Assembly: GCF_014925385.1 (NCBI RefSeq)
Contig: NZ_JACSDK010000009.1
Coordinates: forward strand, 310,001-374,000
Direction of reading: 5' to 3'
DNA length: 64,000 nt
DNA from: Pelagibius marinus
GTDB lineage: Bacteria; Pseudomonadota; Alphaproteobacteria; Kiloniellales; Kiloniellaceae
The notes under the pieces are model-generated. The model was not told where the DNA came from, made no database searches, and saw only the letters and a program-made list of their open reading frames with translations. Shown piece by piece: positions 20,549 to 48,922 of this stretch. A program made the position numbers and the translations under genes. Each line of letters opens with the position of its first letter. The stretch's first letter is position 1.

Positions 20549-20865
20549 TGAGCGCCTCCGTTCAGCAGGTAGTTGGCGATCCAGCGCGCCTCGGCCTCGC
20601 TGAGGAGCGGGCGCCAGGGCGGCATCGGCGTGCCCGGCACGCCGTCCAGGACGATCTCGGTCAGGACGTCGAGCGGCTTGCCCGCCAGGTTTTCCGGCCG
20701 CAGGTCGGACCCGAGCCCGCCTTTCAGCGTCAGGCCATGGCAGGAGCCGCAGTCCTGCAGCACCAGCCGCTCCAGTTCCGCCGCCCGGCCCGGCGGCAAT
20801 TCCGCCGCTGCGGCCGGCCCCGCGGCCAGGCCGCAGAGCAGCAGGATCGGAAAGGCCTCATGCAT
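20545..20865 (-). CDS. nirC: NirC, small periplasmic c-type cytochrome
   Basis: A 106-residue monoheme cytochrome: a signal peptide to about residue 21, CGSCH at 39-43, and a methionine in GTPMPPWRP as the probable sixth ligand. NirC can pass electrons to NirS and may serve NirF or NirN during heme d1 maturation. The ATG overlaps the nirE stop by eight bases, and the stop overlaps the nirF GTG, so it is tightly coupled within the operon. Confidence 0.9.
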   Translation of the reverse strand: MHEAFPILLLCGLAAGPAAAAELPPGRAAELERLVLQDCGSCHGLTLKGGLGSDLRPENLAGKPLDVLTEIVLDGVPGTPMPPWRPLLSEAEARWIANYLLNGGAQ

Positions 20866-21649
20866 AGACGGCGTCCCTGGATGGGCTGGTGGCGAGCAGC
20901 GCCAGGACGGTGTCCGGGCAACTGCGGTAGAGGGAGACGACCTCGCCGATCACGAAGAGCACCGGTCCGCGCAGAGACGCCGCCGCCGCGTCTTCGGCAA
21001 TCCTGCCGAGACTGGAAACCAGGCGGAGCTCTTGCGGTGTCGTCGCGCTGGCCACCGCCATGACCGGGTGCGACGCGGGCAGGCCCTCGCCCAGCAGCCG
21101 CGCGGCGATCTCCGCGATGGCGCCGGCGCCCATGTAGACGACCAGCGTCGTCTGAGGGTCGGCCAGACCCGCCCAATCGAGATCGAGCGGGCGGTCCTCG
21201 CGGCAGTGGCCGGTGATATAACGGATACCGCTTGCCAGGCCGCGATGGGTCAGCGGCACGCCGGTCGCCGCCGCCGCGCCCTGCGCCGCGGTAATGCCGG
21301 GCACGATCTCGAAGGGAACGCCGGCGGCGCTCAAGGCCGCCGCCTCTTCGGAGCCGCGGCCGAAGATCATCGGGTCGCCGCCCTTCAGGCGCACGACCGT
21401 CAGGCCGTCCAAGGCCAGCTCGACCAGGATTTCGTTGATCCGCTCCTGCGGGACGGGGTGGGACTTCGGCGCCTTGCCCACCGGTATGAGGCGCGCCAGC
21501 GGCGGCGTCAGCGCCAGCACCTCTTCCGACACCAGACGGTCGTAGACCACGGCCTGCGCCTCACCGAGGATACGCGCGGCTTTCAGAGTTAGAAGCTCCG
21601 GGTCCCCCGGCCCGGCGCCCACGAGAAAAACCTGACCCGGCTTCCTCAT
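20858..21649 (-). CDS. nirE: NirE, uroporphyrinogen-III C-methyltransferase
   Basis: A 263-residue SUMT of the CobA/NirE type. The SAM-binding VFLVGAGPGDPELLTLKA lies at the N-terminus, followed by VVRLKGGDPMIFGRGSEE near residue 82, PFEIVPGITAAQGAAA and a PLTHRG block. It makes precorrin-2 from uroporphyrinogen III and commits tetrapyrrole to heme d1. It is the second gene of the nirS operon, behind a strong hairpin at 21683-21712. It lacks the dehydrogenase/ferrochelatase domain of CysG. Confidence 0.94.
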   Translation of the reverse strand: MRKPGQVFLVGAGPGDPELLTLKAARILGEAQAVVYDRLVSEEVLALTPPLARLIPVGKAPKSHPVPQERINEILVELALDGLTVVRLKGGDPMIFGRGSEEAAALSAAGVPFEIVPGITAAQGAAAATGVPLTHRGLASGIRYITGHCREDRPLDLDWAGLADPQTTLVVYMGAGAIAEIAARLLGEGLPASHPVMAVASATTPQELRLVSSLGRIAEDAAAASLRGPVLFVIGEVVSLYRSCPDTVLALLATSPSRDAVYA

Positions 21650-21726: not shown

Positions 21727-23557
<1,831 letters not shown>

Positions 23558-23608: not shown

Positions 23609-25690
23609 ATGCGGCTGTTCCGGGCCTTCCTGGTGGCATGCGTAGCTCTTGCCGCCCCCGCCATGATTGGTGCGGCGCCGGCCGCCGGTGATCTGCTTCG
23701 GGCGGACGCCCCGACACAGGCGGAGCCGGATCCGGCTCTCGCCGCGCGCCTCTTCGGCAGCGACGAGACCCTGCGCGTGGTGCGGGAGGAGGGCGGCGTG
23801 CCCGGCTGGTCCGTCAGTTCGCCCGACGGGCCGCTCGGCTACATCGCCTCGACCTGGGAAATTTCCCACTCGGTCGGTTATTCCGGGCGCCCCATCGACA
23901 TCCTGGTCGCCGTCACGGAGGCAGGTCGGATCGCGGGGGCGCAGCTCGTGCGCCACAACGAGCCGATCCTGACGCTGGGCATCTCCACGGCCGATATCGC
24001 GCGCTATATCGACAGCTTCGCCGGCATCGACCTGACCCGCCCCCCCGCCGAAGCCGGGACCGGCGGCGTGGCGGCGCCCGACGTGATCGCCCGCGCCACC
24101 GTGTCCAGCGGCGTCATCCGGGATTCCATACTGCGCACGGCGCGTACCGTCGCCCTGGCGCGCAGCGCAGCCGGCGGCGCCAGGATCGACCGCCTGCGCT
24201 TTGCGGCAAAGACCTGGGCGGAATTGCAGGCGCTGGGCGCGCTGGCCCATGCCACCGTCACCCTCGACCAGGCGCGGGCCGCCCTCGGCGGCGCCAAGGT
24301 CCCGATCCCCTCCGGCAAGGCGCCCTTTATCGACCTCTGGGCTGCGCTGCTCGACCCGCCGACGATCGGTCGCAACCTGCTGGGTCAGCAAGCCTACTCC
24401 CGCGCGGTGGCGACCCTCGGCGCGGAGGAGGTGGCGCTCTTCGTCGCTTCCGCCGGCCTGCACTCGCACCGCGGCACGGCCTGGCGGCGCAGCGGCGTCT
24501 TCGAACGTCTGCGCGTGGTCCAGGACGGCGCGACCTTTGAGGTCCGCGCCGAGAACTACCTACGCCTCGATCGCCTGGCGGCCGAAGGCGCCCCGGACTT
24601 CAAGGAACTGAGCCTGTTCCGGCTGCCGACCACGAGCTTCGACCCGACCCGGCCCTTCACCATCGAGGTGACCGCGACCCGCGAGACGGAAAGGGGCGAG
24701 GTGGCCATGCGGATCCCGCTGGACTATGCGCTACCCGGCGTCTTCGTGCAGGCGGCCGCCGCGCTGGCGGAGGTCGAGCCTCTCTGGATCGGCGCCTGGC
24801 AGCGCAAGCGCTTCGAGGTCATCGGCGTCGGCCTGATGCTGACGGTGCTGGCGCTGATCCTGTTTCTGCAGCAATCCTTCGTGCGCCGGCCCAGGCTATG
24901 GCGCTGGGGCCGCATCGGCTTTCTCAGCGTGACGCTGGTCTGGCTGGGCTGGATCGCCGGCGGCCAGCTCTCGGTGGTCCACATCATCGCCTTCGTGCAG
25001 TCCCTCCTGACCGGCTTCCGCTGGGAGACCTTCCTGATCGAACCGGTCGTCTTCATGCTCTGGAGCTTCGTCGCCCTGGGTCTGCTGTTCTGGGGCCGCG
25101 GCGTCTTCTGCGGCTGGCTCTGTCCCTTCGGCGCGTTGCAGGAATTGACCAACGAGATCGCCCAACGCCTCTCGGTGCCCCAGGTCCAGGTTCCTCAGGT
25201 GGTGCAGGAGCGCCTCTGGGTCATCAAGTACACGCTCTTCGTGGCGATCCTGGGCCTGTCCTTCTATTCGATGGAGCAGGCCCTGGTGCTGGCCGAGGTC
25301 GAGCCCTTCAAGACGGCGATGTCGATGCTCTTCATCCGCGCCTGGCCCTTCGTGCTCTTCGTCGCGGTGATTCTCGTGGCCGGCTTGTTCATCGAGCGCT
25401 TCTACTGCCGCTATCTCTGCCCGCTGGGCGCGGCCCTGGCCATTCCCGCCAAGCTGAAGCTCTTCGACTGGCTGAGCCGGCGCCCGCAGTGCGGCCGCGA
25501 ATGCCGGCTCTGCGAGAAGCTCTGCACGGTGGGCGCCATCGACCCAATCGGCCGCATCAACCCCAACGAATGCGTCCTCTGCCTGCGCTGTCAGATGATC
25601 TATCACGACGCGAACAGCTGCACGATCCTGAAGCGCCGCCAGGCGCGCATGAACCCGGGCGAGCCCCCATCCGAACCAAGGCCGTCTTGA
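23609..25690 (+). CDS. nirI: NirI (NosR/NirI family flavo-iron-sulfur membrane protein)
   Basis: A 693-residue protein. It has a signal peptide, then a periplasmic FMN-binding domain with an ApbE-type flavinylation site (DVIARATVSS, Thr164). About six membrane helices from residue 410 on carry the polyferredoxin-type motifs CGWLCPFGAL and CRYLCPLGAA. C-terminal CxxxCxxCxxxC and CxxCxxC clusters follow. NirI is a NosR homologue required for nirS expression or electron supply in Paracoccus. The name NirI is preferred over NosR because it is divergent from nirS, followed by an ApbE gene, and no nosZ is present. GGAG precedes the ATG by six bases. Confidence 0.88.
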   Translation: MRLFRAFLVACVALAAPAMIGAAPAAGDLLRADAPTQAEPDPALAARLFGSDETLRVVREEGGVPGWSVSSPDGPLGYIASTWEISHSVGYSGRPIDILVAVTEAGRIAGAQLVRHNEPILTLGISTADIARYIDSFAGIDLTRPPAEAGTGGVAAPDVIARATVSSGVIRDSILRTARTVALARSAAGGARIDRLRFAAKTWAELQALGALAHATVTLDQARAALGGAKVPIPSGKAPFIDLWAALLDPPTIGRNLLGQQAYSRAVATLGAEEVALFVASAGLHSHRGTAWRRSGVFERLRVVQDGATFEVRAENYLRLDRLAAEGAPDFKELSLFRLPTTSFDPTRPFTIEVTATRETERGEVAMRIPLDYALPGVFVQAAAALAEVEPLWIGAWQRKRFEVIGVGLMLTVLALILFLQQSFVRRPRLWRWGRIGFLSVTLVWLGWIAGGQLSVVHIIAFVQSLLTGFRWETFLIEPVVFMLWSFVALGLLFWGRGVFCGWLCPFGALQELTNEIAQRLSVPQVQVPQVVQERLWVIKYTLFVAILGLSFYSMEQALVLAEVEPFKTAMSMLFIRAWPFVLFVAVILVAGLFIERFYCRYLCPLGAALAIPAKLKLFDWLSRRPQCGRECRLCEKLCTVGAIDPIGRINPNECVLCLRCQMIYHDANSCTILKRRQARMNPGEPPSEPRPS

Positions 25691-25757: not shown

Positions 25758-26705
25758 GTGCGACCTGTCTCGAAACCAAGTCTGAGCCGACGCCGCTTCC
25801 TGGCCATTTCGGCGGCCACCGCGGCGCTGCCGGCCGCCGCGCGCGCCGCCCGGCCGGTCACGCGTTGGCGCGGCGCCGCCCTCGGCGCCCAGGCATCGAT
25901 GACACTCGTGGGCGTGCATGAGGCCGAGGCGACGGACGTCTTCGCCGCGGTCGAGGAGGAGATAGACCGGCTGGAAGGGCTTTTCAGCCTCTACCGCCGC
26001 GGCTCGCTGCTGGCCCGCCTGAACGCGGAGGGCCGGCTGACGGCACCGCCCGGCGAGTTTCTGGACCTGCTTGAGTTGTCGGACCGGCTGCAGCGGACGA
26101 CCTGCGGCGCCTTCGATCCGACGATCCAGCCCCTGTGGCTGCTGCACGCCGCGGCAGCGACGGAGCGGCGGCGCCCGACAGCCGGCGAAGTCGCCGCAGT
26201 GCGGGAAAGCTGCGGCTGGCGACACCTCGAGATTTCGCCCCGGGAGGTGGCCTTCACCCGTCCGGGCATGGCCCTCACCTTCAACGGGATCGGCCAGGGT
26301 TACATCGCCGACCGCGTCGCGGCACTGCTGCGCGGTATGGGACTGCGCGACGTCCTTGTCGACATGGGCGAGATCGCCGCCCTCGGGCGGCGGCCGGACG
26401 GCAGGCCCTGGCGCGCCGGCATCAGCCTGCCCGAAGGCCGCATCGTCCGCGAGGTCCGTCTGGGCGAGCGCTGCCTGGCCACCTCCGCGCCGCTCGGCAC
26501 CCTGCTCGACCCCGCGGGGCGCGTCGGCCATATCCTGGACCCGCGCAGCGGAGAGCCGGGCGGACGCTGGAAGCTGGTTTCCGTCGCCGCCGACCGCGCC
26601 GCCCTGGCCGACGGGCTTTCGACCGCCTGCTGCCTGCTGTCCCGCGACGCCATCGCCGTGGCGCTCGGCGCGCATCCCGACGCCTCCCTCGAGGCCCTGC
26701 TCTAA
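25758..26705 (+). CDS. nirX: NirX, ApbE-type FAD:protein FMN transferase with Tat signal
   Basis: A 315-residue protein. A twin-arginine signal (SRRRFLAISAA) precedes an ApbE domain with LFSLYRRGSLLARLNAEG, CGAFDPTIQPLW, FNGIGQGYIADRVA and DMGEIAALGRRPDG. ApbE proteins link FMN covalently to a threonine, and NirI upstream carries such a site (Thr164). NirX of Paracoccus is the NosX paralogue next to NirI. The GTG at 25758 is the only start that keeps the Tat motif near the N-terminus. An Nnr box lies directly upstream. Confidence 0.9.
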   Translation: MRPVSKPSLSRRRFLAISAATAALPAAARAARPVTRWRGAALGAQASMTLVGVHEAEATDVFAAVEEEIDRLEGLFSLYRRGSLLARLNAEGRLTAPPGEFLDLLELSDRLQRTTCGAFDPTIQPLWLLHAAAATERRRPTAGEVAAVRESCGWRHLEISPREVAFTRPGMALTFNGIGQGYIADRVAALLRGMGLRDVLVDMGEIAALGRRPDGRPWRAGISLPEGRIVREVRLGERCLATSAPLGTLLDPAGRVGHILDPRSGEPGGRWKLVSVAADRAALADGLSTACCLLSRDAIAVALGAHPDASLEALL

Positions 26706-26732: not shown

Positions 26733-27116
26733 ATGCGGACATTGAAGATTGCCGTTCTTGCCGGCGCCCTCGCCTGTTTCGCCACGCCGGCCCTGGCCGA
26801 CGGCGACGCTGAGAATGGCGAGAAGGTCTTCCGGAAGTGCAAGGCCTGCCACGCCGTCGGCGAGGACGCCAAGAACAAGGTCGGCCCGCAGCTCAACGGC
26901 ATCGTCGGCGCCACCGTCGGCTCGGTCGAGGACTTCAAGTACTCCGACGCCTTCCAGGAAAAGCACGCCGAGGGCATGGAGTGGACCGAAGAGAACCTCG
27001 ATGCCTACCTGGCCAAGCCCAAGGACCTGATCCCCGGCACCAAGATGACCTTCGCAGGCCTGCGCAAGGAAGGCGAGCGCGCGGACGTGATCGCCTATCT
27101 GAAACAGTTCGAATAG
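26733..27116 (+). CDS. Class I periplasmic cytochrome c (c550/c2 type)
   Basis: A 127-residue monoheme cytochrome. It has a 22-residue signal peptide, CKACH at 36-40, the HAVGEDAKNKVGPQLNGIVG stretch of mitochondrial-type cytochromes c, and Met105 in PGTKM as sixth ligand. It is a plausible soluble electron carrier between the bc1 complex and NirS, and it could also feed the CuA-type oxidoreductase at 33-35 kb. It follows nirX by 27 nt with AAGGAG before the ATG. The rather acidic sequence suits docking to lysine-rich partners. Confidence 0.92.
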   Translation: MRTLKIAVLAGALACFATPALADGDAENGEKVFRKCKACHAVGEDAKNKVGPQLNGIVGATVGSVEDFKYSDAFQEKHAEGMEWTEENLDAYLAKPKDLIPGTKMTFAGLRKEGERADVIAYLKQFE

Positions 27117-27140: not shown

Positions 27141-27716
27141 CTACACAGCCAGCGCCTGGGCCAGGTGGTCCGGCAGATCGAACTCGGCGGCGACCCGGGC
27201 GCGGCCCTCGGCGGACATCTTGCGGGCGGTCTTGGTGACGATCCCGGCGATCTGCTCGGCGTCGCGCCCCGCGGCGAAGTCGGCGAAGTACCAGCGCAGG
27301 AAGACGAGGCAGATGACGTCCTCGAGCATCTGCACCTCGGCGTCGTGCTTCAGCCGCTCCTTGCGTAGCATGGCGGCGGCCCGCTGGCAGTCGTCCTCCG
27401 GATAGCCGGCCTCCGCCATCAGCCCCGCGACCCGCTCGGCGTGGAAGGCGCCCTGCGCCTTGCGCCATTTGAGATAGCCGGGACGGCCTTCGGGGTAGGA
27501 ACTGCGCGGCATCTTCCAGCGCTCGATGTGCTGGCCGCGGGCGGCGATCTGCAGCAGCTCGCTCGGCTGCGGGCAGATCCGCGCCAACTCGTCCGACATG
27601 CGTCGTCCGTAGAGCAGGGCGGCGGGGCCTGCCTCCGCCCCCTCGCCCTCCACGGTCGGGTCTTGCGCGTTGGCGGCGTCGATCGCGGCGAGAACCGCCT
27701 CCAGCCGACCGCTCAA
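27141..27716 (-). CDS. DUF4202 family protein
   Basis: A 191-residue soluble protein without signal peptide. It matches the DUF4202 pattern in LEAVLAAIDAANAQDP, AARGQHIERWKMPRSSYPEG, YLKWRKAQGAFHAERV and MLEDVICLVFLRWYFADFA. The paired His residues (GQHIERW, AFHAERV) and Asp residues recall an HD-like hydrolase, but this is only a visual impression. The biochemical role is unknown. It overlaps the Dnr-like regulator gene by four bases and so belongs to the regulator's operon, next to the cd1 genes. Confidence 0.8.
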   Translation of the reverse strand: MSGRLEAVLAAIDAANAQDPTVEGEGAEAGPAALLYGRRMSDELARICPQPSELLQIAARGQHIERWKMPRSSYPEGRPGYLKWRKAQGAFHAERVAGLMAEAGYPEDDCQRAAAMLRKERLKHDAEVQMLEDVICLVFLRWYFADFAAGRDAEQIAGIVTKTARKMSAEGRARVAAEFDLPDHLAQALAV

Positions 27717-28420
27717 TGGACGCGGCTCCAGGCCATCGCGGGATCCTCGCCCACGTAGGCCCGCAGCGCCGCGACGTCCGAGATGGCCGCGTGATTCTGA
27801 TTGACGCAGACCCCGATCTCCTTCAGCCGCGCAAAGGAGCGCGAAAGGCTCTCCGGCTTCATGCCAAGCCGGCCCGCGATCAGCACCTTGTCGTAGGGCA
27901 GCGTGACGGCACAGCCGCCCTCGTCGACCGGGCAGAGATCGAGCAGGAACTCAGCCACCCGCTGGGCGCCGGTATGCGCCTTCAACTGCTCGACCTGGGC
28001 AACCAGGGCATGCAGGTGCCTGAAGGTCGAGGCGAGCATCGCCGTGCAGAGTTCCGGATGCGGTTTCATCAGTCCCAGGATCAGGCCGGCGCTCACCGGC
28101 ATGACGCGGCAGTCGGTGACGGCCTCGGCGCCCACCGGATAGACGTCGTTCTGGAAGGCCGCGGCCTCTCCGAAGCTCTGCCCCTTGGTGAAGACGCCCA
28201 CCACCGCCTCGGCGCCGTTTTGCGAAATGCGGAACAGCTTCACCCAACCTTCCAGCACGATGTAGACGATCTCCGCGGGCTCACCCTGCAGAAAAATCGT
28301 CGTGCCGCGCCCGAAGGTGCGGATCTCGGTCTGGGAAAGGATGGTATCAAGCAACTGGTCCGGGACGCTCGAAAGGAGTATGGACTCCTTGGCGACGCGC
28401 CAATCGTCATTCGGTCGCAT
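27713..28420 (-). CDS. Crp/Fnr-family regulator without N-terminal cysteine cluster (Dnr/Nnr-like)
   Basis: A 235-residue protein with a cyclic-nucleotide-type barrel (EIVYIVLEGWVKLFR, KGQSFGEAAAF), a long dimer helix, and a C-terminal winged helix with KPESLSRSFARL. The Glu-xx-Ser-Arg recognition residues are those of proteins that bind TTGAT/C-N4-ATCAA/GTCAA. The N-terminal cysteines of FNR are absent, as in heme-based NO sensors such as Dnr and NnrR. It is therefore the likely NO-responsive activator of the five FNR/Nnr boxes found here. A one-mismatch box lies at 28476-28489, upstream of its own gene. Confidence 0.85.
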   Translation of the reverse strand: MRPNDDWRVAKESILLSSVPDQLLDTILSQTEIRTFGRGTTIFLQGEPAEIVYIVLEGWVKLFRISQNGAEAVVGVFTKGQSFGEAAAFQNDVYPVGAEAVTDCRVMPVSAGLILGLMKPHPELCTAMLASTFRHLHALVAQVEQLKAHTGAQRVAEFLLDLCPVDEGGCAVTLPYDKVLIAGRLGMKPESLSRSFARLKEIGVCVNQNHAAISDVAALRAYVGEDPAMAWSRVH

Positions 28421-28590: not shown

Positions 28591-28998
28591 CTAGGAATGG
28601 GAATGCGGACCCAGGCGGCGGTGAAGCCGCGAGTCGTGGACCCGGAAATGATCGGCGAACCAGGCCTCGAGCGTCGCGACGAGACGGTCGACCGAGGCTT
28701 CCGGCGTGCCGGCCGCGTCGTCCATGAGGTCGCGCAGGGCGTCCAAGAGGCGCTCATGATCGGCCTTGTGCTCGGCCAACGCGTCGTAGCGCGCCTCGCG
28801 CATCTGCCGTTCCTCCAGGGCGAAATGCGCCGAGATGGCGCGCAGAAGATCGCCGAAGCCGCGTTCGACGTCGGCCTCCGGGCGCCGCTCCAGGATCGCG
28901 CCGGCGGTGCGGTTCACCAGATCGATGAGCTGGCGGTGCTCATGATCCACCGCGGGGTCGCCGACGCTGAACTCGGGCTTCCATTCGATCGGAGCCAT
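28591..28998 (-). CDS. Bacteriohemerythrin
   Basis: A 135-residue single-domain hemerythrin. Diiron ligand candidates follow the canonical order: His in AVDHEH (18-21), HFALEE (His58, Glu62), HKADH (His77, His81) and WFADHFRVHD (His117, Asp122). Bacteriohemerythrins bind oxygen and some bind NO. The ATG at 28998 has AGGGAGACC in front; a longer frame to 29019 lacks such a site. It is the last gene of the heme-copper oxidoreductase operon and 17 nt after the hypothetical gene. Confidence 0.88.
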   Translation of the reverse strand: MAPIEWKPEFSVGDPAVDHEHRQLIDLVNRTAGAILERRPEADVERGFGDLLRAISAHFALEERQMREARYDALAEHKADHERLLDALRDLMDDAAGTPEASVDRLVATLEAWFADHFRVHDSRLHRRLGPHSHS

Positions 28999-29015
28999 GA
29001 CGGTCTCCCTTCGGC

Positions 29016-29522
29016 TCACTTGAATACAAAGCCGCCCGATTCCGGGCGAAAATCGATGACGAAGCTCTGCGCCGGGACGAGGGTCACCTGCGTTTCGCCC
29101 ACATAGTCGAAGCCCTGCGTGGCGGGACGGTCGCGCAGGCGCACGGCGATATCGTGGCGGCCCGCCGGCAGAGGAAAGCGCTGGTAGATGCGCGACGGGC
29201 CGCTGCCGGCGATGCCGCGCGCCGGCAGCTCCTCGGCCAGCACCGTCGCGCCGTCGATCTCGATCTCGACGTAGATCGGCGGCCGGCGGCGGTCACAGAC
29301 CTTGGCGATTCGCATGTTCGGCGGCAGCTCGGCCAGCTCTTCCGGCGTTCGCTCGCGGCAGGAGGCGCTGCGGTCGCCGCTGTGCGTAAAGCTGACGCGC
29401 AGCAGCGCCATGTCCGCCGGCAGGCTCTGCCAGCCGGGCGCCGCCGAGAGGTAGGCGACGGCGAGCGACAGCGCCAGCGTGGCCGCGCCGCCCAGGATGA
29501 GATGCCGCAGGCGCCCCTTCAT
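29016..29522 (-). CDS. Membrane-anchored protein of unknown function in the heme-copper operon
   Basis: A 168-residue protein not assigned to a known family. One N-terminal hydrophobic segment (residues about 8-28) would anchor it in the inner membrane with the rest outside. Two cysteines occur in the exported part (SASCRER and KVCDRR). The C-terminal half reads like a beta-rich domain with PPIYVEIEIDGATVLAEE and ending VIDFRPESGGFVFK. Its ATG overlaps the stop of the cytochrome b/ferredoxin gene, so it is translated with that protein. A role in assembly or as an accessory subunit is possible but unproven. Confidence 0.75.
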   Translation of the reverse strand: MKGRLRHLILGGAATLALSLAVAYLSAAPGWQSLPADMALLRVSFTHSGDRSASCRERTPEELAELPPNMRIAKVCDRRRPPIYVEIEIDGATVLAEELPARGIAGSGPSRIYQRFPLPAGRHDIAVRLRDRPATQGFDYVGETQVTLVPAQSFVIDFRPESGGFVFK

Positions 29523-31105
29523 TCGGCGAGCTCCCGTTGGACGGCCGTCGCCTCGCCCTTTGCCAGTTCATCCTGGCTCAGCGGGCGCGCCTTGTCGTAG
29601 GACGGCTGCGCGGCGAGCTGTTCGGCAAAGGCCGCGGTTTCCCGCCGCAGCCGGCCGGTCTCGCTGGGCCCGGCCCAGACCACCAGCAGGCGCTCACGCG
29701 GGACCCGTTCCCGCAGGAAGGGATCGCGCCGGCGCGCCACGCGCTCACGCATCCACTCGCCGCCCAGGCGGTTCCAGCATTCGCGTTCGGCGCAGCCGGC
29801 GATGCAGATGCCGTCGGCGAGGCCGCGGCTGATGATGAAATCGAGCAAGGCCGGCGGCGCCATCGCCACGCAGGGCAGGACGATGCGGCCCGCTTCCGGC
29901 AGGCCGCCGGCGCCATGGCCGCAGGCCAGGGTGAGGACGCGGCCCGGCCCCGACAGTCCGCCCGCGGCGGCGATCACCTGGGTGCGCAGCTCGGCCAGCG
30001 AGTAGGCCGGCAGATCGATGCCCGTGACCAGATCGCCCGAGCGGCGGAACGGCGTCGAGGAAGGACAGGCCCCCATGCAGATGCCGCAGGCGACACAGCG
30101 GTCGGCATTGACCTCGACCTCGTGGGGAAAGGGCGCCCCGTCGCTGCGCGGCACCAGGTTGATCGCGGAGTAGGGACAGTCGGCGACGCAGCGCGCGCAG
30201 CCGTTGCAGTGGTCAAGCGCCACCACCGCCGCCGGCGCCTCTTTGCGGCGGGGAAGCCACGGCAGGCCGATCAACAGCACGCTGAAGACCAGGACGCCGG
30301 TCCAGATGACGCCTGCGGGCAGCAGCTCGATGACCGGGTAGAGACTGAGGAGGAACCAGTCGATGCCGACGCGGGCGGGCACCGTCGCCAGGTCCGCGGG
30401 CGCCTGGGAGGTCGCCGGCATCAGCAGCGACGCGGCGACCAGGGCCACCAGCGTCAGCACGGCAAGGCCGCGCGCCGGCTTGGTGCGCGCCTGGCTGATG
30501 CGCTGGATGTGGATCCACATGGCGAGCAGCAGCAGCAGCGGAATGGCGATGTGCAGGAACACCATCAGCGTGAAGAAGCGGCTGGAGAGGCTTTCCGGCG
30601 TCAGGAAGTTGCGCGCGATGGGTTCGGCGAAGACCGGCAGAGCGTCCAACAGCTCGGTAGTGGTCAAGGCGACGTACTGCGCCAGTTCGTCCCACACCAG
30701 CCAGTAGCCGGTAATGCCCGAGAGGTAGACGAACCACAGCACCGGCACCCCGGTGATCCAGGAAAACCAGCGCCGCCCCCGATAGCGGTCGAAAACCAAC
30801 TCACGCAGCAGGTGGACCAGCATCGCCAGGACCATGAGGTCCGAGGCGTAGCGGTGCAGGCTGCGGGCGAGCCCGGCGTGGAACCAGTGGTCCTCGGTCA
30901 GCCACTGCACCGAGGCATAGGCGTCCACAACGCCGGTGTCGAAGAAGATGAAGAGGTAGATCCCGGTTCCCGCGACGATCCAGAACAGGAACCAGCCCAG
31001 CGGGCCGAGGTTGGCCAGCGGGTTCCAGTCGGGACCGAACAACCGGTCGAGGCCGCGTTCGACCCGGTCGAAGCCGCGACGAAGTACGCTGCGAAGCCCC
31101 ATCAT
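29519..31105 (-). CDS. Cytochrome b / two [4Fe-4S] ferredoxin / MvhD-like fusion protein
   Basis: A 528-residue membrane protein with three parts. Residues about 1-300 resemble the N-terminal half of cytochrome b, with His pairs spaced like bis-heme ligands in LHRYASDLMVLAMLVHLL and FLHIAIPLLLLLAMWIHI. A ferredoxin domain follows with CNGCARCVADCP and CVACGICMGACP. The last 150 residues look like the MvhD/FlpD domain (CGHGAGG, LPCVAMAPPAL, CIAGCAERECW). It could move electrons between quinol and a cytosolic or membrane partner. The start MMGLRS overlaps the SCO stop as ATGA. Its direct partner is unknown. Confidence 0.82.
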   Translation of the reverse strand: MMGLRSVLRRGFDRVERGLDRLFGPDWNPLANLGPLGWFLFWIVAGTGIYLFIFFDTGVVDAYASVQWLTEDHWFHAGLARSLHRYASDLMVLAMLVHLLRELVFDRYRGRRWFSWITGVPVLWFVYLSGITGYWLVWDELAQYVALTTTELLDALPVFAEPIARNFLTPESLSSRFFTLMVFLHIAIPLLLLLAMWIHIQRISQARTKPARGLAVLTLVALVAASLLMPATSQAPADLATVPARVGIDWFLLSLYPVIELLPAGVIWTGVLVFSVLLIGLPWLPRRKEAPAAVVALDHCNGCARCVADCPYSAINLVPRSDGAPFPHEVEVNADRCVACGICMGACPSSTPFRRSGDLVTGIDLPAYSLAELRTQVIAAAGGLSGPGRVLTLACGHGAGGLPEAGRIVLPCVAMAPPALLDFIISRGLADGICIAGCAERECWNRLGGEWMRERVARRRDPFLRERVPRERLLVVWAGPSETGRLRRETAAFAEQLAAQPSYDKARPLSQDELAKGEATAVQRELAE

Positions 31106-31944
31106 TGCATCGCGCGGCTGCGCAAGCTCTTCGCAAGGCGCCGGTTGCCCAGCCACAGGCGCAGGATCACGGTGCCGGTGATCAGCAGCGACAGCCCGCC
31201 GAAGAAGATGCCGAAGAAGATCCCGTAGTCGAAGCGGTAGGCCCCGGTCAGCGGGTTGTAGACCGTGCAGAGGAAGGAGACCCGGTCCCAGAGATCCGCC
31301 GGCGCGAGGGAGCGGGTGACCCTGCCGAGCACCAGGTCCTTCAGCGGTTCCATGAGCACCGGCAGCGGGAAGGTCTCGCCGTAGACCTGACGGTAGACCC
31401 GCCCCTCGGCATCCAGGATCGTGGTCTGGGTCACGTGGTCGAAGCCGCCGGCCGCCGAGCGCAAGCTGAAGCCCAGGTCCGACAGCAGCGCTTCCGTGGT
31501 GTCGGCGTCGGCGCTGGCGAGGAACCAGTTCTCGACGCCGTCCAGGTGGTGGGTGTCGGCGAAGGCGCTGAGCTGCGCCGGGCGGTCCCGCCCGGCGTCG
31601 AAGCCGAAGGTCAGGACCGCGAAGCTCTGTGACCCGAGGGCACGGCGCGCCTCCGCAACGGCGTCGCGCAAATGGTCCGTGGTGATCGGGCAGACCGTGC
31701 TGCAGCTGGTGAAGACCAGCGAGATGACCAGGGGACGGCCGCGCAGCTCGGCCAGGGCCAGGGGCGCGCCGTTCCGGTCGGTCAGTACATGGGCTCCGAC
31801 ACTGCCGCCGATCACGGCCTGACTGCGCTCGTAGGCGACGCGGGCGTCGAGCTGAGGCACGGCCGCAGGCGCGGAGGGCACCGCCGCGAGCAGCAGGACG
31901 CCGCCCAGCGCCGCCGGCAGAAGCCCCCGGTTCAGAACGCCCAT
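31102..31944 (-). CDS. SCO1/SenC family copper chaperone with C-terminal membrane helix
   Basis: A 280-residue protein: a signal peptide, then a thioredoxin-like SCO domain with CSTVC (copper ligands) and the later GFDHVTQT histidine. Past the SCO fold is a C-terminal extension with a hydrophobic helix (GIFFGIFFGGLSLLITGTVI), so the protein is probably anchored at this end. SCO proteins load the CuA centre of oxidase subunit II, and a CuA subunit is encoded three genes upstream. The ATG at 31944 follows GAGGGGG and overlaps the end of the heme O synthase gene by 13 nt. Confidence 0.87.
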   Translation of the reverse strand: MGVLNRGLLPAALGGVLLLAAVPSAPAAVPQLDARVAYERSQAVIGGSVGAHVLTDRNGAPLALAELRGRPLVISLVFTSCSTVCPITTDHLRDAVAEARRALGSQSFAVLTFGFDAGRDRPAQLSAFADTHHLDGVENWFLASADADTTEALLSDLGFSLRSAAGGFDHVTQTTILDAEGRVYRQVYGETFPLPVLMEPLKDLVLGRVTRSLAPADLWDRVSFLCTVYNPLTGAYRFDYGIFFGIFFGGLSLLITGTVILRLWLGNRRLAKSLRSRAMQ

Positions 31945-32813
31945 CGAACCCCCTCGTCCAGGATCACACCCAGAGCGAGCAGGGCAAACTGCAACAGCGA
32001 GGCGCGGAAGGTCGCCATCGCCAGACGCTGGTCGGGCCGGCGCATCAGGCGCCAGCTGGCCCGGAGGAAGGGCAGCCCGCCGGCCGCGGCGAAGAGCCCG
32101 TAGACCGGCCCCATGCCGAACAGCAGCGGCATGAAGGACAGGGCCACCAGCGCCGCCACGTGACTGAAAATGGTCGGGCCCCAGAAGGACGGCTCGGTCA
32201 CGACCGGCAGCATCGGCACCTGGGCATCGCGGTAGTCTTCGCTGCGGGCCGCCGCCAGGCTCCAGAAGTGCGGCGGCGTCCAGAGAAACAGCACCGCCGC
32301 CAGCAGCAGCGGCACGGGCCCGATAAGCGGCTCCGTCGGCGCCGCGGCCGCGGCGGCCCCTGCCAGCACGGCGAAGCTGCCCGCGGCCCCGCCGATCACC
32401 ACGTTCCACACCGTGCGCTTCTTCAGCCACACGGTGTAGACCAGGCCGTAGGTCGCGGCGCCGCAGAACACCAGCACGCTGGCCAGGGCGCCGCCCACCG
32501 AGTAGGCCATGAGCAGCGAGGCGGCCAGCAGCGCCGTGAAGGTGATCGGCCAGATCGCGCCCGCCTTCAACGTTCCCTTGGCGAAGGGGCGGTTGCGGGT
32601 ACGCTTCATCAGGCGGTCGCCGTCGCGCTCGAGGTACTGGTTGAAAGCCCCCGCCGCGCCGGAAGCGCCCAGCACGGCGATGGAAAAGACCAAGGCTTCA
32701 AGCGGCCCCAGCGCCGGGCCTCCGGTGAGGATTCCGACCAGCGCCGCCAGCGCCACGAAGGAGCCGATCCGCAGCTTGAGGATCGAAACCGTCATTCTGA
32801 GCGCAGCGATCAT
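31932..32813 (-). CDS. ctaB: Heme O synthase-like protoheme farnesyltransferase (CtaB/UbiA family)
   Basis: A 293-residue protein with about eight membrane segments. The first prenyl-diphosphate motif is FNQYLERDGDRLMKRT. LKKRTVWNVVIGGAAGSFAVL and LFLWTPPHFWSLA are CtaB blocks. It should convert heme B to heme O. No ctaA (heme A synthase) is present here. The dedicated copy within the operon suggests that the heme-copper enzyme carries a farnesylated heme. It lies 19 nt after subunit I. Confidence 0.9.
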   Translation of the reverse strand: MIAALRMTVSILKLRIGSFVALAALVGILTGGPALGPLEALVFSIAVLGASGAAGAFNQYLERDGDRLMKRTRNRPFAKGTLKAGAIWPITFTALLAASLLMAYSVGGALASVLVFCGAATYGLVYTVWLKKRTVWNVVIGGAAGSFAVLAGAAAAAAPTEPLIGPVPLLLAAVLFLWTPPHFWSLAAARSEDYRDAQVPMLPVVTEPSFWGPTIFSHVAALVALSFMPLLFGMGPVYGLFAAAGGLPFLRASWRLMRRPDQRLAMATFRASLLQFALLALGVILDEGVRWAF

Positions 32814-32832: not shown

Positions 32833-34563
32833 TCAATGGAACAGCCAGAGCTCGGACAGGTACTTCCAGTTCACGAAGTAGTAGAGCACGAAGGCCGTGA
32901 AGAAGATGCCGACGAGGATGATTGTGCCGGGCAGCTTCAGCGTGCCTTCGCTGCCGTACTGCGACACCGCTTCGCGTCCCTGGTCGTGCAGCGGAAAGAC
33001 CATCTTCGCCCCCGGACGGTCGAGCCGTGGACCGGCGAGGATCGAAGCGACAACCACGACTATGAACATGATCCCGCCCAGGGCGGCCAGAATCGCCGCG
33101 ATACCGTTCAGTCCCATCATGAGGTAGGCGCCCGGCGCGAACTCGAAGGCATGGGCCGCATCCGTCAGCGCAAGGTCCCAGTGACGCCGCGCGACGCCCA
33201 GCGTGCCCGCCCCCATCATGAAGAGCGATATGCCGCCGGCGCCGAAGCCGAAGATATAGGGCTGCCAGCGCGCCACGCCCGGCCAGATGATGTCGCGCTG
33301 AAAGATCAGCGGCACCACGAGGTAGGTCATCGCCATGAAGGCCAGAGTGGTGCCGGCGACCACCGTGCCGTGGAAGTGCCCGGGCACATAGATCGTGTTG
33401 TGCATCAGCACGTTGAGCTGCTCGGTGCCCAGCACGACCCCGGAAATGCCGCCGATGAAGCCGAACATCACCAGCGAGAGGAACATGCCGGCGAAAGCCG
33501 GGTTGCCCCAGGGCGCCTTGGTCAGCCATTCGAAGGCGCCGCGCGTGAAGCCGTTGCGGCGCTGCGCCGCCTCGATCGCGCCGGGCACCGTCAGGCCGTG
33601 GACCATGGACCCCATGACGGCCAGATACATCATGTAGCTGGTGTTGACGATCTTCCAGGTCGAGCTCATGCCCGGCTCGGCCAGCAGGTGGTGGGCGGAG
33701 GCGAGCTGCAGGAAGAGGATGTACATGAGGAAGGCCATGCGGCTGACCTTCTCCGATAGCGGCTTGGCACCGACGACCATGGCCCCGATCGCATACCAGA
33801 TCGCGACATGGGCGGAGACGTTGATCTGCTGCGACGAGTGCCCCATGCCCCACCACACGACCTTGTACATCAGCGAGTCGATCTCGGAGACCAGGCCGAT
33901 CGACCACAGCCAGGTGGGGATCAGGATGATGGCGCCGGAGGCCAGGGTGAAGACCGCGATGATGCCGGCCGTGATCGCGCCGAAGGTGACCAGCGGCACC
34001 GAGCCGTTATAGGTCTGCTCCGCCTTGGCCACCACAAGGGTTCCGAAAAACACCATGACCCCGATCAGCGCCCCGACCGCGAAGATGATCAGCGAGAGAT
34101 AGAACCACTGCGAGGCCATCATCGGCGGGTAGGAGGTGAACATCACCGAGGAGTCGCCGCGCAGGACCGCGTAGTTCGCCATGCCCGCGCCAACGAGCAT
34201 CAGCACGAAGGAAAGCCAGGCGAATCGCGGCGTCGCGAGTCTCGCCCCCAGCACCACGGCGGAGGCGAAATAGAGCACGGCGATCTCGAAGAAGATGATC
34301 CAGAACAGCAGCACGTTGGCGCCGTGGCCGGTCAGGACCAGATAGAACATCTCCGCCGGCAGCAGCTGCACCGCCGGCCAGCGCGTCAGCGCGACCAGCA
34401 GTCCCATCACCCCGCCGAGGGCCAGGAAGACCACCGCCGCCACGGCGTTGACGCGGATCAGCAGCTCGGCGTTGCGTTCGACCCGCAGCCCGGTGAAACG
34501 GCAGGTGCGATAGTTGGCTTCGATGCCCGGGGCCGCGAAGGCGCCTTCTTCAATCGTGGTCAT
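32833..34563 (-). CDS. Heme-copper oxidoreductase subunit I with Gln in place of active-site Tyr; candidate NO reductase
   Basis: A 576-residue protein with about twelve or more membrane helices. All six metal-binding histidines are present: His80 (LTGHG), His242 (GHSSQQ), His291-His292 (SAHHLL), and His396 and His398 (PGHFHGT). PGHFH recalls B-type oxidases. The residue four after His242 is Gln246, whereas oxygen-reducing A and B types have the cross-linked Tyr there and NorB has Glu. No Tyr was seen at the helix-VII position used by cbb3 enzymes. Glu93 lies in a membrane segment. In a denitrification locus without norCB, with an Nnr box upstream, NO reduction is the best inference. Alternative families such as eNOR or sNOR are the likely relatives. 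Confidence 0.88.
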   Translation of the reverse strand: MTTIEEGAFAAPGIEANYRTCRFTGLRVERNAELLIRVNAVAAVVFLALGGVMGLLVALTRWPAVQLLPAEMFYLVLTGHGANVLLFWIIFFEIAVLYFASAVVLGARLATPRFAWLSFVLMLVGAGMANYAVLRGDSSVMFTSYPPMMASQWFYLSLIIFAVGALIGVMVFFGTLVVAKAEQTYNGSVPLVTFGAITAGIIAVFTLASGAIILIPTWLWSIGLVSEIDSLMYKVVWWGMGHSSQQINVSAHVAIWYAIGAMVVGAKPLSEKVSRMAFLMYILFLQLASAHHLLAEPGMSSTWKIVNTSYMMYLAVMGSMVHGLTVPGAIEAAQRRNGFTRGAFEWLTKAPWGNPAFAGMFLSLVMFGFIGGISGVVLGTEQLNVLMHNTIYVPGHFHGTVVAGTTLAFMAMTYLVVPLIFQRDIIWPGVARWQPYIFGFGAGGISLFMMGAGTLGVARRHWDLALTDAAHAFEFAPGAYLMMGLNGIAAILAALGGIMFIVVVVASILAGPRLDRPGAKMVFPLHDQGREAVSQYGSEGTLKLPGTIILVGIFFTAFVLYYFVNWKYLSELWLFH

Positions 34564-34574
34564 GCCCTTACCCC

Positions 34575-35129
34575 TTACTCGACGACGCGGATGCGCCCTG
34601 TCATCGTGTGATGACCGATCCCGCAGAACTCGTTGCAGATGATGCCAAAGACGCCGCTATCGGTCGGCGTCAGGGTCACGACGTGCTCGTAACCCGGATG
34701 GACGGAGATGTTGATGTTGGTCGGCTGCAGGGAGAAGCCGTGCTGCCAGTCCGCCGACGACAGATGAATGCGGTAGCTCTGGCCCTTCTGCAATTCCAGG
34801 ATCGGCCAGAACTCCCACAGCCGCGCCAGGATGTAGACATCGCCACCGGCCGGCGGACGAACGACGGGGACCCCCTCTTCCTCAAGGGGCTCGCCGTCAG
34901 CCCCAATGGCCTGGTACTCCTCGGCGAAGGCCTCGACCTTCTCCACATAGCTCTCCGGCCGGATGCGGTAGGTCTCGGTCGACAGGTTCTGCTCGCCGAT
35001 GAAATGCCAGGCGATCATGAAGAAGAACATGAAGAGGCCCCAGAGGAAGGCGATGATGATCCAGCCCAGCTCGGTGCCGTGGATCGGTTCCTTCCACCAG
35101 AGGCGGTTTGTCGGTGGGGTAACGGCCAT
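34575..35129 (-). CDS. Heme-copper oxidoreductase subunit II with CuA site
   Basis: A 184-residue protein with one membrane helix (residues about 21-42) and a periplasmic cupredoxin domain. The CuA ligands are complete: His130 (DWQHGF), Cys165 and Cys169 (CNEFC), His173 and Met176 (GIGHHTM). Between helix and cupredoxin lies an acidic stretch (about 55-97) longer than in small B-type subunits. It should accept electrons from a cytochrome c, for example the one at 26.7 kb. It starts 27 nt after the small subunit and ends 11 nt before subunit I. Confidence 0.9.
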   Translation of the reverse strand: MAVTPPTNRLWWKEPIHGTELGWIIIAFLWGLFMFFFMIAWHFIGEQNLSTETYRIRPESYVEKVEAFAEEYQAIGADGEPLEEEGVPVVRPPAGGDVYILARLWEFWPILELQKGQSYRIHLSSADWQHGFSLQPTNINISVHPGYEHVVTLTPTDSGVFGIICNEFCGIGHHTMTGRIRVVE

Positions 35130-35156: not shown

Positions 35157-35339
35157 TCAGTTGGCAACGGGAACGGAAGCCACCTCCATCACGCCCCAGA
35201 CAATGTAGAGGACGGCAGGGATCGTGACGCCGAGGAAGAGCAGAAGGAAGGGGTTGTCCAGAACGCGTTGCATGACGGGCACCGGCTCCTGTTTCGCCGC
35301 TTCGCCGCCGCCCGCTTCAGGTGTGTTGCTGTCGCTCAT
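35157..35339 (-). CDS. Small single-helix subunit of the heme-copper oxidoreductase
   Basis: A 60-residue protein with a hydrophilic N-terminal half and one membrane helix (LLLFLGVTIPAVLYIVWGVM). The position before subunit II and the topology recall the small IIa-type subunits of B-type oxidases, but the sequence itself was not recognised. GGGGG lies six bases before the ATG at 35339; an ATG two codons earlier is too close to that box. It is the first gene of the eight-gene operon. Confidence 0.72.
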   Translation of the reverse strand: MSDSNTPEAGGGEAAKQEPVPVMQRVLDNPFLLLFLGVTIPAVLYIVWGVMEVASVPVAN

Positions 35340-35633
35340 TCTCATCCCCCTCAGGATCAATGGCGGAGACAGGCCGCACCCTCCGGCTAACCGGTCGCCA
35401 CGCGCCAGGCGCGCATCGCCGCGGCTGTGCCCGCGTCGGCGGGTGTCACGAAGGGCGCCTGCAAGAATTCGACATCCGATTCCAGCCGCCTCTCCATTCA
35501 GGCAGGTTTCGACGGCTTGTAATTGACTTTGGTCAAGCACAGGAATCGGAAGGCGAAAGCCTTTCAGATCCGACTGCCCGGCTGGCTTCGCAGAGAGGTG
35601 ACGCGCCCGGAGGATCCGGACGCCGAGGGACGA
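35340..35633. other. Promoter region of the heme-copper operon and putA 3' flank
   Basis: This stretch separates the putA stop from the small-subunit gene on the same strand. It holds a perfect Nnr box at 35523-35536. No clear terminator for putA and no credible small gene were seen; the open frame reaching 35540 lacks a ribosome-binding site and coding character. Confidence 0.5.
35523..35536. promoter_or_regulatory. Perfect FNR/Nnr box TTGAC-TTTG-GTCAA upstream of the heme-copper operon
   Basis: Both arms are complete and nearly identical to the boxes at nirS/nirI and nirX. It lies about 190 nt upstream of the first start codon. That implies a leader of roughly 150 nt if the activator binds at the usual -41 position. 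Confidence 0.8.
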
Positions 35634-46824: not shown

Positions 46825-48213
46825 TCACGGCATGAATATCCTCTCTGGCAACCAAGTAACTATGACCGGGAACATCCAGACCAGCGTCAAGGCAACGAGT
46901 TGGATCCCGATAAACGGGAAAACCCCCAGATAAATGTCCGATGTGCGCATGTTCGCCGGCGCCACGCCCCGCAGGTAAAACAGGGCGAAACCGAAGGGCG
47001 GGGTCAGAAAACTCGTTTGCAGATTGATGCCGATCATGACCCCCAGCCAAAGGGGATCGCATCCCATGGCGATCAGTATCGGCCCCACGATCGGCACGAC
47101 GACAAAGATGATCTCGATGAAATCCAGGAAGAAGCCCAGCAGGAAAATGATCAGCATGACGACAGCCATGGCCGTGAATTGCCCGCCGGGAAGATCAGAG
47201 AGAAACTCCTCCACCACCACGTCCCCCCCGAACCCTCGAAAGACAAGACTGAACATGGACGCGCCCAACAGGATCAGGAAAACCATGGAGGTTATCTTCA
47301 TGGTTTGCAGCGAGACCACCCGCAGGATGGAGAGGTTGAGCTGGCGCGCTCGCAGTGCCAGCAGGGTGGCGCCGACAGCGCCGACAGATGCGGACTCCGT
47401 CGGCGTGGCGATCCCCGTCAGAATCGACCCTAGGACAACTACGATCAGCAGGACCGGTGCCAGGACGACCTTTATCGCCTCCAGGACCGCAACCGTCTCC
47501 CGGTCTTCCGCATCGCCGCCTTTCAGCGCCGGGCAGCTGCCCGGCTGCAGCAGCGCCATGGCCACCTGCCAGCCGACATAGAGGCCGACCAGCAGGACGC
47601 CCGGAATCAGGGCCCCGGCGAAGAGATCGATGGCTGTGACGGGTTCGGGGACCAGCTTGCCGGCGCGCTGGGCAGCTATTTCGTTGGCCCCCTGCAGAAT
47701 GTCGCCGAGCAGCACCAGGACGATGGACGGTGGAATGATCTGGCCCAGCGTACCAGAGGCACAGATAAGCCCGGCCCCCAGTCTGGGGCTGTAGCCGGAC
47801 CGCAGCATGACCGGCAGGCTCATGAGACCCATGGTGACCACCGTGGCCCCGACAATTCCGGTGGAAGCTGCCAGCAGCGAGCCGACGATGACCACCGATA
47901 TGCCGAGCCCGCCGCGCATGCGCCCGAACATCCTGCCCATGGTTTCAAGCAGATCGCCCGCCAGGTTGGACTTCTCCAGCATGACGCCCATGAAGATGAA
48001 GAGCGGCACCGCGACGAGCGGCTCGTTCTTCATGACCCCGAAAACGCGTAGTGGATAGACCATCAGCATACCGGCGTTGAACAGCCCGAGGTGGTCGCCG
48101 ACGAACGCAAACAACAGCGAGACGCCCCCCAGCGTCAGGGCCACCGGATATCCCATGACCAGCGCCAGCAGGCAGACACCGAACATGATGAAACTGAGGT
48201 GTTCCGCAGTCAT
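46825..48213 (-). CDS. dctM: TRAP transporter large permease (DctM)
   Basis: A 462-residue protein with about twelve to thirteen membrane segments and the DctM pattern: MGYPVALTLGG near the N-terminus, ASTGIVGATVVTMGLMSLPV, CASGTLGQIIPPSIVLVLLG and TPTESASVGAVGA. It forms the sodium-driven TRAP channel with DctQ. It is of the longer kind that carries a cytoplasmic or loop insertion near residue 190-260. Its ATG overlaps the dctQ stop as ATGA. Confidence 0.95.
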   Translation of the reverse strand: MTAEHLSFIMFGVCLLALVMGYPVALTLGGVSLLFAFVGDHLGLFNAGMLMVYPLRVFGVMKNEPLVAVPLFIFMGVMLEKSNLAGDLLETMGRMFGRMRGGLGISVVIVGSLLAASTGIVGATVVTMGLMSLPVMLRSGYSPRLGAGLICASGTLGQIIPPSIVLVLLGDILQGANEIAAQRAGKLVPEPVTAIDLFAGALIPGVLLVGLYVGWQVAMALLQPGSCPALKGGDAEDRETVAVLEAIKVVLAPVLLIVVVLGSILTGIATPTESASVGAVGATLLALRARQLNLSILRVVSLQTMKITSMVFLILLGASMFSLVFRGFGGDVVVEEFLSDLPGGQFTAMAVVMLIIFLLGFFLDFIEIIFVVVPIVGPILIAMGCDPLWLGVMIGINLQTSFLTPPFGFALFYLRGVAPANMRTSDIYLGVFPFIGIQLVALTLVWMFPVIVTWLPERIFMP

Positions 48214-48773
48214 TGAAGTGCCTCCCGCGCAACTTCTGCACCCATGTCGATTTGCTCCGCGGCCGCTTCGCCCGTGACCAGGGTTCGCAGGGCACGCAGC
48301 AGCATCGCCAGAAGCTGCAAACCAAAGATGCAGCAGAATGCGGCAATCATGCTTTTCAGAAGGAACAAGCCGGGCAGGCCGCCGATCTCAGCCGACTTCT
48401 CGAGCGACAGCCAGGACCGATGGATCATCGGCCAGCTGCGATCCAGGATCACCCCGACCAGAGGTAGTCCAAGGCAGAGAGTTCCGACGAGATCGACCGC
48501 CGCCTTATACCGGGGGCGGGCGATTCCATAGATCAGGTCGATGCGGACGTGACCGTTGTGCAGCAACGTATAGCCGGCGCCCGCCAGGAAGATCGTGGCA
48601 TGCGTCCAGACATACAGCTCCTGCATCCAGACCCAGCCCAGGCTGAAGACATAGCGCATGACGACAACGGTGAATACATTGACGACAAGCAGCACATTCA
48701 GCCAGGCGACCGCTTTTCCGATCCGGTCGTTTATGGATTCAAGAATGTCGATGGCGGCCGACAATGTTTGCAT
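48210..48773 (-). CDS. dctQ: TRAP transporter small permease (DctQ)
   Basis: A 187-residue protein with four hydrophobic segments. The first is followed by VMRYVFSLGWVWMQELYVWT, the recurrent DctQ block. It partners DctM. The ribosome-binding site before the ATG is weak. A 149-nt gap with two strong hairpins separates it from dctP upstream, which probably lowers its expression relative to the binding protein. Confidence 0.9.
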   Translation of the reverse strand: MQTLSAAIDILESINDRIGKAVAWLNVLLVVNVFTVVVMRYVFSLGWVWMQELYVWTHATIFLAGAGYTLLHNGHVRIDLIYGIARPRYKAAVDLVGTLCLGLPLVGVILDRSWPMIHRSWLSLEKSAEIGGLPGLFLLKSMIAAFCCIFGLQLLAMLLRALRTLVTGEAAAEQIDMGAEVAREALQ

Positions 48774-48813
48774 CGGTCAGCACTCCGGGATGGGTTGGTA
48801 AAGGCGGAAAAAT

Positions 48814-48844
48814 GGGGCTGCAACGGCTGTGGCATTGCAGCCCC
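48814..48844 (-). terminator. Hairpin 1 between dctP and dctQ
   Basis: GGGGCTGCAA and TTGCAGCCCC form a perfect ten-base stem with an eleven-base loop. There is no T-run, so attenuation or protection of the dctP message is more likely than full termination. Confidence 0.6.
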
Positions 48845-48857
48845 AAGTCCTTCCGAG

Positions 48858-48874: not shown

Positions 48875-48922
48875 GACGGCACCTCCGCAGGGCGAGGGTC
48901 GTAGGTTCCCCTGGGAAGACAG

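Follow-up and report, generated by a model that had tools for sequence, protein, structure and literature searches.

The gene at 32833..34563 on the minus strand of the window analysed here very probably encodes subunit I of eNOR, a predicted NO reductase derived from the B-family oxidases. The window is a stretch of 64,000 nt of Pelagibius marinus (assembly GCF_014925385.1, contig NZ_JACSDK010000009.1, positions 310,001 to 374,000 of the forward strand), and all positions below count within it. According to Pfam, alignment, and tree, the protein has a heme-copper core with Gln245-Gln246 for the Val-Tyr of oxidases, and it is assigned to eNOR because Gln in place of the cross-linked Tyr is the diagnostic of that family in the text and Table A4 of PMC8756737. 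Neither the active site nor the family is new. What surprised us is how closely eNOR is tied to a cytochrome b-iron-sulfur-MvhD fusion protein, and how large a fraction of the NirS genomes in the class contains eNOR.

Subunit I and its active site

The open reading frame of subunit I (576 aa, minus strand; the plus-strand reading contains a stop) matches Pfam COX1 (PF00115) with an E-value of 5.4e-58, and its G+C at codon positions 1/2/3 is 0.60/0.43/0.91. The first-pass annotation had described six ligand histidines and a Gln four residues after His242. Both descriptions hold: His80, His242, His291, His292, His396, and His398 are all present, and profile alignment places Gln246 on Tyr237 of the Thermus ba3 oxidase (1ehk). 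The enzyme shares the fold, the six His ligands, and a CuA subunit II with 1ehk. In contrast, besides Gln246 for Tyr237, the same alignment pairs Gln245 with Val236, Asn248 with Trp239, and His322 with Thr312 of the oxidase.

The reference points of that annotation were also borne out. The Tyr of A- and B-type oxidases is seen in the GHPEVY motif of the genome's own A-type oxidase and as Tyr237 in 1ehk, and the Glu of NorB stands at the +4 position in NorB of Sinorhizobium meliloti pSymA, a reference located by Pfam match in an unannotated stretch. In cbb3 (C-type) oxygen reductases, the His pair is preceded in helix VII by the cross-linked Tyr. In the cbb3 oxidase of this genome, a Tyr that we take to be the cross-linked one precedes the pair by six residues; at this place, subunit I has Leu285, in agreement with the earlier remark that no Tyr is found there.

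Collectively, these residues separate the protein from the following families of the superfamily. A canonical A- or B-type oxygen reductase is ruled out by the absence of Tyr from either known place and by the tree position, and a cbb3 enzyme is ruled out by Leu285. cNOR and qNOR (NorB-type) are ruled out by Gln instead of Glu at +4 and by a CuA subunit rather than NorC or a fused cytochrome c. For sNOR, gNOR, and CuANOR (bNOR), the residue at the Tyr place is Asn, Asp, and Asn, respectively, in Table A4 of PMC8756737, and Gln246 excludes all three. NCBIfam returned only oxidase matches for subunit I, far below cut-off. Among the candidate families named beforehand, eNOR matches the Gln246 diagnostic; the altered active site is therefore real, while its novelty had been overrated, since Gln at this place defines a known family.

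In an alignment of 131 rows, which are related rather than independent and from which the window copies (L003, L004) and fragments (L017, L019) were left out, Gln occupies position 246 in 114 rows, and the remaining 17 have Tyr (16) or Phe (1). All 114 Gln-type rows also have His242, Gln245, Asn248, Tyr257, His291, His292, Ser319, His322, and His396. One conserved proton channel is described for eNOR, and the invariant Tyr257, Ser319, and His322, which may belong to such a channel, stand at what we take to be the K-channel residue places of ba3 oxidase; Tyr257 and Ser319, together with the small extra subunit of the operon, are presumably ba3-like traits. His398 is present in 112 of the 114 rows, with Lys in the other two. 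The QQxN motif also occurs in 12 further rows, taken from the phylum to which a Saprospiraceae MAG belongs. Position 252 is His or Gln in the Pseudomonadota clade and Met in the Thermus, Thermomicrobium, and Bacteroidota rows.

A tree of 55 hand-chosen rows, midpoint-rooted and with long branches flagged, placed the 40 Gln-type rows in one clade (100/98), apart from the 12 Tyr-type B-family oxidase rows, which form a separate clade (100/100). Placement of subunit I inside an oxygen-reductase clade would have spoken against the eNOR reading; in this tree it lies outside the Tyr-type B-family clade, and an earlier tree of 45 rows had the identical split. Within the Gln-type rows, the Pseudomonadota clade that includes the window (25 rows) is supported at 100/100, and the rows outside Pseudomonadota group weakly (73/43). 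The Thermus and Thermomicrobium Gln-type rows group with the window in this tree, which was built without the Rhodothermus marinus eNOR and also rests on Bacteroidota rows.

The predicted fold of subunit I has a mean pLDDT of 76.5 and a pTM of 0.82, with low confidence near parts of the active site. Its nearest PDB entries are the Thermus ba3 oxidase and 7deg, with TM scores by query length of 0.73-0.78 over the first 21 matches. A PDB sequence search at E<=0.001 returned no eNOR structure by molecule name among 28 matched sequences.

Reportedly, Hemp and Gennis, whom PMC8756737 cites, described the eNOR family as an NO reductase in 2008, and Murali et al. are said to have purified eNOR from Rhodothermus marinus (PNAS, 2024). 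The protein studied here resembles that family in its Gln at the Tyr place, B-type fold, and occurrence with nir genes, in its two subunits with a cupredoxin subunit II directly upstream of subunit I, and in its separate clade near the B-family oxygen reductases. Excerpts of the literature report putative eNOR in Alpha-, Beta-, Gamma-, and Deltaproteobacteria, and an eNOR alignment with one Thermus and one Rhodothermus profundi sequence (PMC8756737), refer to eNOR as biochemically characterised (PMC11388526), and place eNOR in an operon with NirK (PMC4653789). Similarly, an excerpt of PMC10734462 describes six Gallionellaceae genomes with narGH plus nirK or nirS; eNOR is present in four of the six. 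The literature covered also included parts of PMC9270275, PMC12569097, PMC8114936, and PMC10359470.

Several observations concern other members of the superfamily. Haloarchaeal plasmid matches were considered as archaeal eNOR and rejected, as the four inspected have Tyr and are B-type. On Thermus thermophilus plasmids (L131, L133, L172, L173, L174), helix X of the eNOR homologues has HFK in place of HFH; this holds for five of five copies inspected, out of 10 Thermus plasmid records found, and places Lys at the His398 place of the window. The second His of HFH is presumably a low-spin heme ligand, and a His/Lys-ligated heme would be unusual. The eNOR of a Saprospiraceae MAG (L070/L150) groups with Hyphomicrobiaceae rows, which points to a recent transfer or a mis-binned contig. 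Furthermore, a separate heme-copper family was seen in three genomes of the class (L117, 1090-2754, plus strand; L118, 1381-3102, minus strand; L119, 856-2514, plus strand), with YFH, where Tyr replaces the heme-ligand His of HxH, and YH in place of the HH pair. The respective genomes (G073, G283, G137) all have NirK over cut-off, in G283 about 1 kb from the gene.

The operon, its control, and its genome context

Gene neighbourhoods were compared in the best 80 of 518 confirmed relatives (66-87% identity), so the counts describe close relatives, and each denominator includes only those of the 80 loci with enough flank. All operon genes of the window lie on the minus strand. A small gene of 60 aa with one hydrophobic stretch (MQRVLDNPFLLLFLGVTIPAVLYIVWG..., 35157..35339), perhaps the counterpart of ba3 oxidase subunit IIa, is followed by subunit II, a cupredoxin with a CuA motif (34575..35129; PF00116, 6.9e-5; TIGR02866, 2.9e-11, below cut-off); the motif of the former precedes subunit II in 75/78 loci, and subunit II is present in 79/79. 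His130, Cys165, Glu167, Cys169, His173, and Met176 of subunit II, whose roles as CuA ligands we assume from the motif, are conserved at >=97% in 80 rows. Downstream of subunit I lie a heme O synthase (CtaB/CyoE; 31932..32813; TIGR01473, 1.7e-67, over cut-off; 67/78 loci) and a SCO-type copper chaperone with CxxxC and His (31102..31944; PF02630, 8.7e-11 on a longer ORF; 76/76 loci), whose conserved residues are Cys81, Cys85, and His170. Beyond the fusion gene (29519..31105), a 168-aa protein of unassigned function (29016..29522; 68/68 loci) has a hydrophobic N-terminus and two conserved cysteines, Cys55 and Cys76, with no match in Pfam or NCBIfam, and a bacteriohemerythrin with a conserved His/Glu/Asp set (28591..29019; TIGR02481, 3.2e-24, over cut-off) occurs in 63/65 loci.

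About 9 kb from subunit I lies nirS, encoding the cytochrome cd1 nitrite reductase as the NO source (21727..23493, minus strand; PF02239, 4.1e-151, plus a cytochrome c domain). Divergent from it is a NosR/NirI-like membrane iron-sulfur protein (23609..25690, plus strand; NF046105, 2.4e-185, 617.7 bits against a cut-off of 1000), which is adjoined by ApbE for flavin transfer (25758..26705, plus strand; PF02424, 1.6e-55), and a small cytochrome c (26733..27116, plus strand; PF00034, 2.1e-8) is found in the same region. Two heme d1 genes on the minus strand encode a nirF-like cytochrome D1 domain protein (19379-20548; PF02239, 2.5e-95) and a tetrapyrrole methylase (20858-21649; PF00590, 9e-52). 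Among the relatives, a NirS match (E<=1e-100) lies within the flanks in 21/80 loci, three of which show only 39-43% identity and may be paralogues.

The operon keeps the same gene order on a Defluviimonas plasmid (NZ_CP156080). It was seen on this 165-kb plasmid (L130, 13852-20598) near molybdenum enzyme genes, and the 31 kb examined there contain no annotated nir gene. One plasmid record annotates eNOR subunit I as a cbb3-type oxidase subunit. On two Thermus plasmids (L133, L172), eNOR lies near nirS, with an Rrf2 regulator after it and, by annotation in L172, also a DUF542 protein; this is perhaps an NO-response set. Elsewhere in the window, 46825-52368 holds TRAP transporter and two-component genes at a lower G+C of 0.61-0.64, with a tRNA-Arg at 53075, and is perhaps acquired DNA.

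An FNR/Dnr-type palindrome, TTGAC-N4-GTCAA (35523..35536), precedes the operon; it lies about 184 bases ahead of the first small gene. Across loci, a TTGA[TC]N4[GA]TCAA box occurs between -1100 and -560 in 51 of 78, a count that omits loci with too short flanks, against a mean of 0.165 and a maximum of 2 in 200 runs of first-order random sequences. The box had first been counted at -1000 to -560 (46 of 84 loci), and the wider range was set after the positions had been seen. Only this enrichment carries weight, because the 64-kb window contains about as many strict boxes (three) as expected by chance; nirS has none upstream. A Crp/FNR-family regulator (27713..28420, minus strand; PF00027 and PF13545) with no NCBIfam model over cut-off is perhaps Dnr/NnrR-like, and directly downstream of it is a DUF4202 protein (27141-27716), which was found near eNOR in 5/80 loci. 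The operon is presumably under NO-responsive control.

The P. marinus assembly (5.44 Mb, 35 contigs, 98.35% complete) contains three PF00115 genes, encoding the A-type oxidase, the cbb3 oxidase, and eNOR subunit I. None of them is NorB, and a NorB query gave no match at E<=1e-8 in the assembly; on the basis of this NorB search, the description of the locus as lacking norCB extends to the assembly, with no norB found that would speak against an NO reductase role. NarG and NirS are present, NirK had no match in the assembly at 1e-20, and both NosZ models matched only a stretch of subunit II there, far below cut-off. Given NarG and the lack of a NosZ match over cut-off, the organism is predicted to run nitrate to N2O.

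We further examined 289 genomes of the class (Alphaproteobacteria). eNOR was found in 18 (E<=4.2e-246; next genome 1e-34) and NirS in 20 (E<=2.0e-146; next 1e-12); 16 genomes carry both, two have eNOR without NirS, and four have NirS without eNOR. The association gives a Fisher p of 1e-20, uncorrected for kinship, which inflates it. Both eNOR genomes without NirS have NirK over cut-off, so that NirS or NirK is present in 18 of 18 eNOR genomes. Where NirS occurs without eNOR, qNOR-length matches were found in two of the four genomes and a cNOR in a third; the fourth (G178, whose NirS match contains one in-frame stop) has neither eNOR nor a NorB match. Within the 18 eNOR genomes, we found one cNOR, one qNOR-length match, and one unclassified weak match (G135). 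The latter protein (L175, G135:C30; 480 aa) is heme-copper-like, with HH and HAM motifs and no NorB Glu motif.

A NorB search of 49 relatives' genomes, drawn from the 80 loci with L032 and 30 other loci excluded, detected a cNOR/qNOR-type gene in 10. The first tally of 12/49 had included G376, which proved to be cbb3, and G366, which lacks the Glu motif. Among the 10, G352 and G389 were inspected and have the Glu motif, and the five cNOR-like and the qNOR-length matches were judged by score and length. Because a NorB-type gene is present in 10/49 relatives and 2/18 class genomes, eNOR is often, not always, the sole NO reductase of its genome. Among the NirS genomes of the class sample, eNOR with its fusion partner outnumbers every other NO reductase (16/20).

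The cytochrome b-iron-sulfur-MvhD fusion protein

The fusion protein (528 aa, minus strand) is encoded in 68/68 loci. It consists of a cytochrome b6-like half with four heme histidines (His84, His98, His185, His199), two [4Fe-4S] motifs, and an MvhD/FlpD-like domain with four conserved cysteines. Its predicted model has a mean pLDDT of 80.6; the 50 listed PDB matches all come from cytochrome b-type respiratory chains, at TM scores of about 0.4 by query length. Its closest known counterparts are cytochrome b6 and bc1 cytochrome b on the one hand and MvhD of Mvh-Hdr complexes on the other, which it resembles in the four heme histidines, the [4Fe-4S] motifs, and the MvhD-like domain; unlike them, it holds all three parts in one chain and is tied to eNOR.

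At E<1e-160, the fusion is present in 19 of the 289 class genomes, namely, all 18 eNOR genomes and G330. Other matches, at E 1e-10 to 1e-18, mostly cover the cytochrome b part alone. The G330 contig, which also has nirS, stops 143 bases past the SCO match, where CtaB and eNOR would come, and the eNOR of this genome may lie in an assembly gap. No copy of the fusion, the 168-aa protein, or the hemerythrin was seen in the ~8 kb around eNOR of Thermus and Thermomicrobium, in contrast to the Pseudomonadota clusters, which keep all three. The fusion thus looks like a lineage-bound partner of eNOR.

We propose that the fusion is a dedicated electron or activation partner of eNOR. A more specific version, which we put forward tentatively and consider somewhat unlikely as it stands, is that the Pseudomonadota eNOR is not fed by soluble cytochrome c alone and instead forms a unit with the fusion, which would take its electrons from quinol or a cytosolic donor (iron-sulfur or flavin) as a private wire, perhaps in an energy-conserving loop. 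The main rival to the partner reading is that the fusion is an assembly or repair reductase, acting in copper loading via SCO or on heme, rather than a donor of turnover electrons. The gene order CtaB-SCO-fusion, which groups the fusion with assembly genes, makes this a real possibility, short of an even chance. However, the four heme histidines, two [4Fe-4S] motifs, and MvhD-like domain resemble a full electron wire, and a core assembly step should be shared, yet the gene is absent from the ~8 kb around the Thermus and Thermomicrobium eNOR genes. No eNOR-fusion module for NO respiration was found among the titles and abstract openings listed in the literature searches; the main eNOR paper lies outside that search and may describe one.

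Proposed reaction, alternative functions, and implications

In the proposed mechanism, NirS of the cluster would make the NO, and FNR/Dnr-type control would switch the operon on. Electrons would be taken up at CuA and handed on via the low-spin heme to the high-spin heme/CuB site; there, two NO molecules would be joined and reduced to N2O and water. Since this reaction would take two electrons and involve no O-O bond cleavage, the cross-linked Tyr, which supplies the fourth electron in oxidases, would not be needed, and Gln245 and Gln246 might serve as hydrogen-bond or proton donors. A proton path via Tyr257, Ser319, and His322 is possible because these residues stand where ba3 has its K-channel residues. 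The fusion partner might link eNOR to a quinol or cytosolic donor, or activate it, as NosR does for NosZ. The enzyme would thereby share its reaction and its partnership with NirS with cNOR and qNOR, from which it differs in having Gln rather than Glu at His+4 and a CuA subunit instead of NorC.

The first-pass annotation had cast the protein, encoded next to nirS, as an NO reductase responsible for the last step from nitrite to N2O. This role is supported, at the level of sequence and gene content, by the eNOR Gln, the tree, NarG and NirS without NorB, the NirS or NirK in every eNOR genome of the class sample, and the upstream FNR/Dnr-type box. A B-type oxygen reductase that has lost its cross-linked Tyr and works as a slow microaerobic oxidase would also have ba3-type oxygen reductases as its nearest solved relatives, and oxidases, too, come with a CuA subunit, SCO, and heme O synthase. 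However, the Gln-type rows make up a single broad clade in which QQxN is invariant, which argues against a decayed oxidase; moreover, the 18/18 co-occurrence with NirS or NirK, the FNR/Dnr-type box, and a genome that already has A-type and cbb3 oxidases leave such an enzyme very improbable.

A different question is what an NO reductase would do for the cell. The hemerythrin kept in the operon and the Defluviimonas plasmid operon, with no annotated nir genes in the stretch examined, are compatible with a role mainly in detoxification, or a second function on both NO and O2, rather than in energy-conserving respiration, whereas the position beside nirS in the window, the NirS matches in the flanks of 21/80 loci, and the frequent absence of another NorB from the genome point the other way; we regard such a role as unlikely. 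Conversion of NO to another product, such as by dismutation, seems extremely improbable: although the site is unlike that of the Glu-type NO reductases, the data offer no support for it, and the known putative dismutases are qNOR-like in an excerpt of PMC6094997, whereas subunit I is B-family-like.

Searches for norB miss eNOR, and 16 of the 18 class genomes with eNOR (15 of 18 if the unclassified G135 gene counts) would pass as nitrite reducers without cNOR or qNOR. N2O, the putative product of eNOR, is a greenhouse gas, and with eNOR in 16/20 NirS genomes of the sample, the enzyme may be a major source of N2O in Alphaproteobacteria. Finally, the kept fusion partner suggests a concrete way in which another donor could supply a heme-copper NO reductase with electrons.
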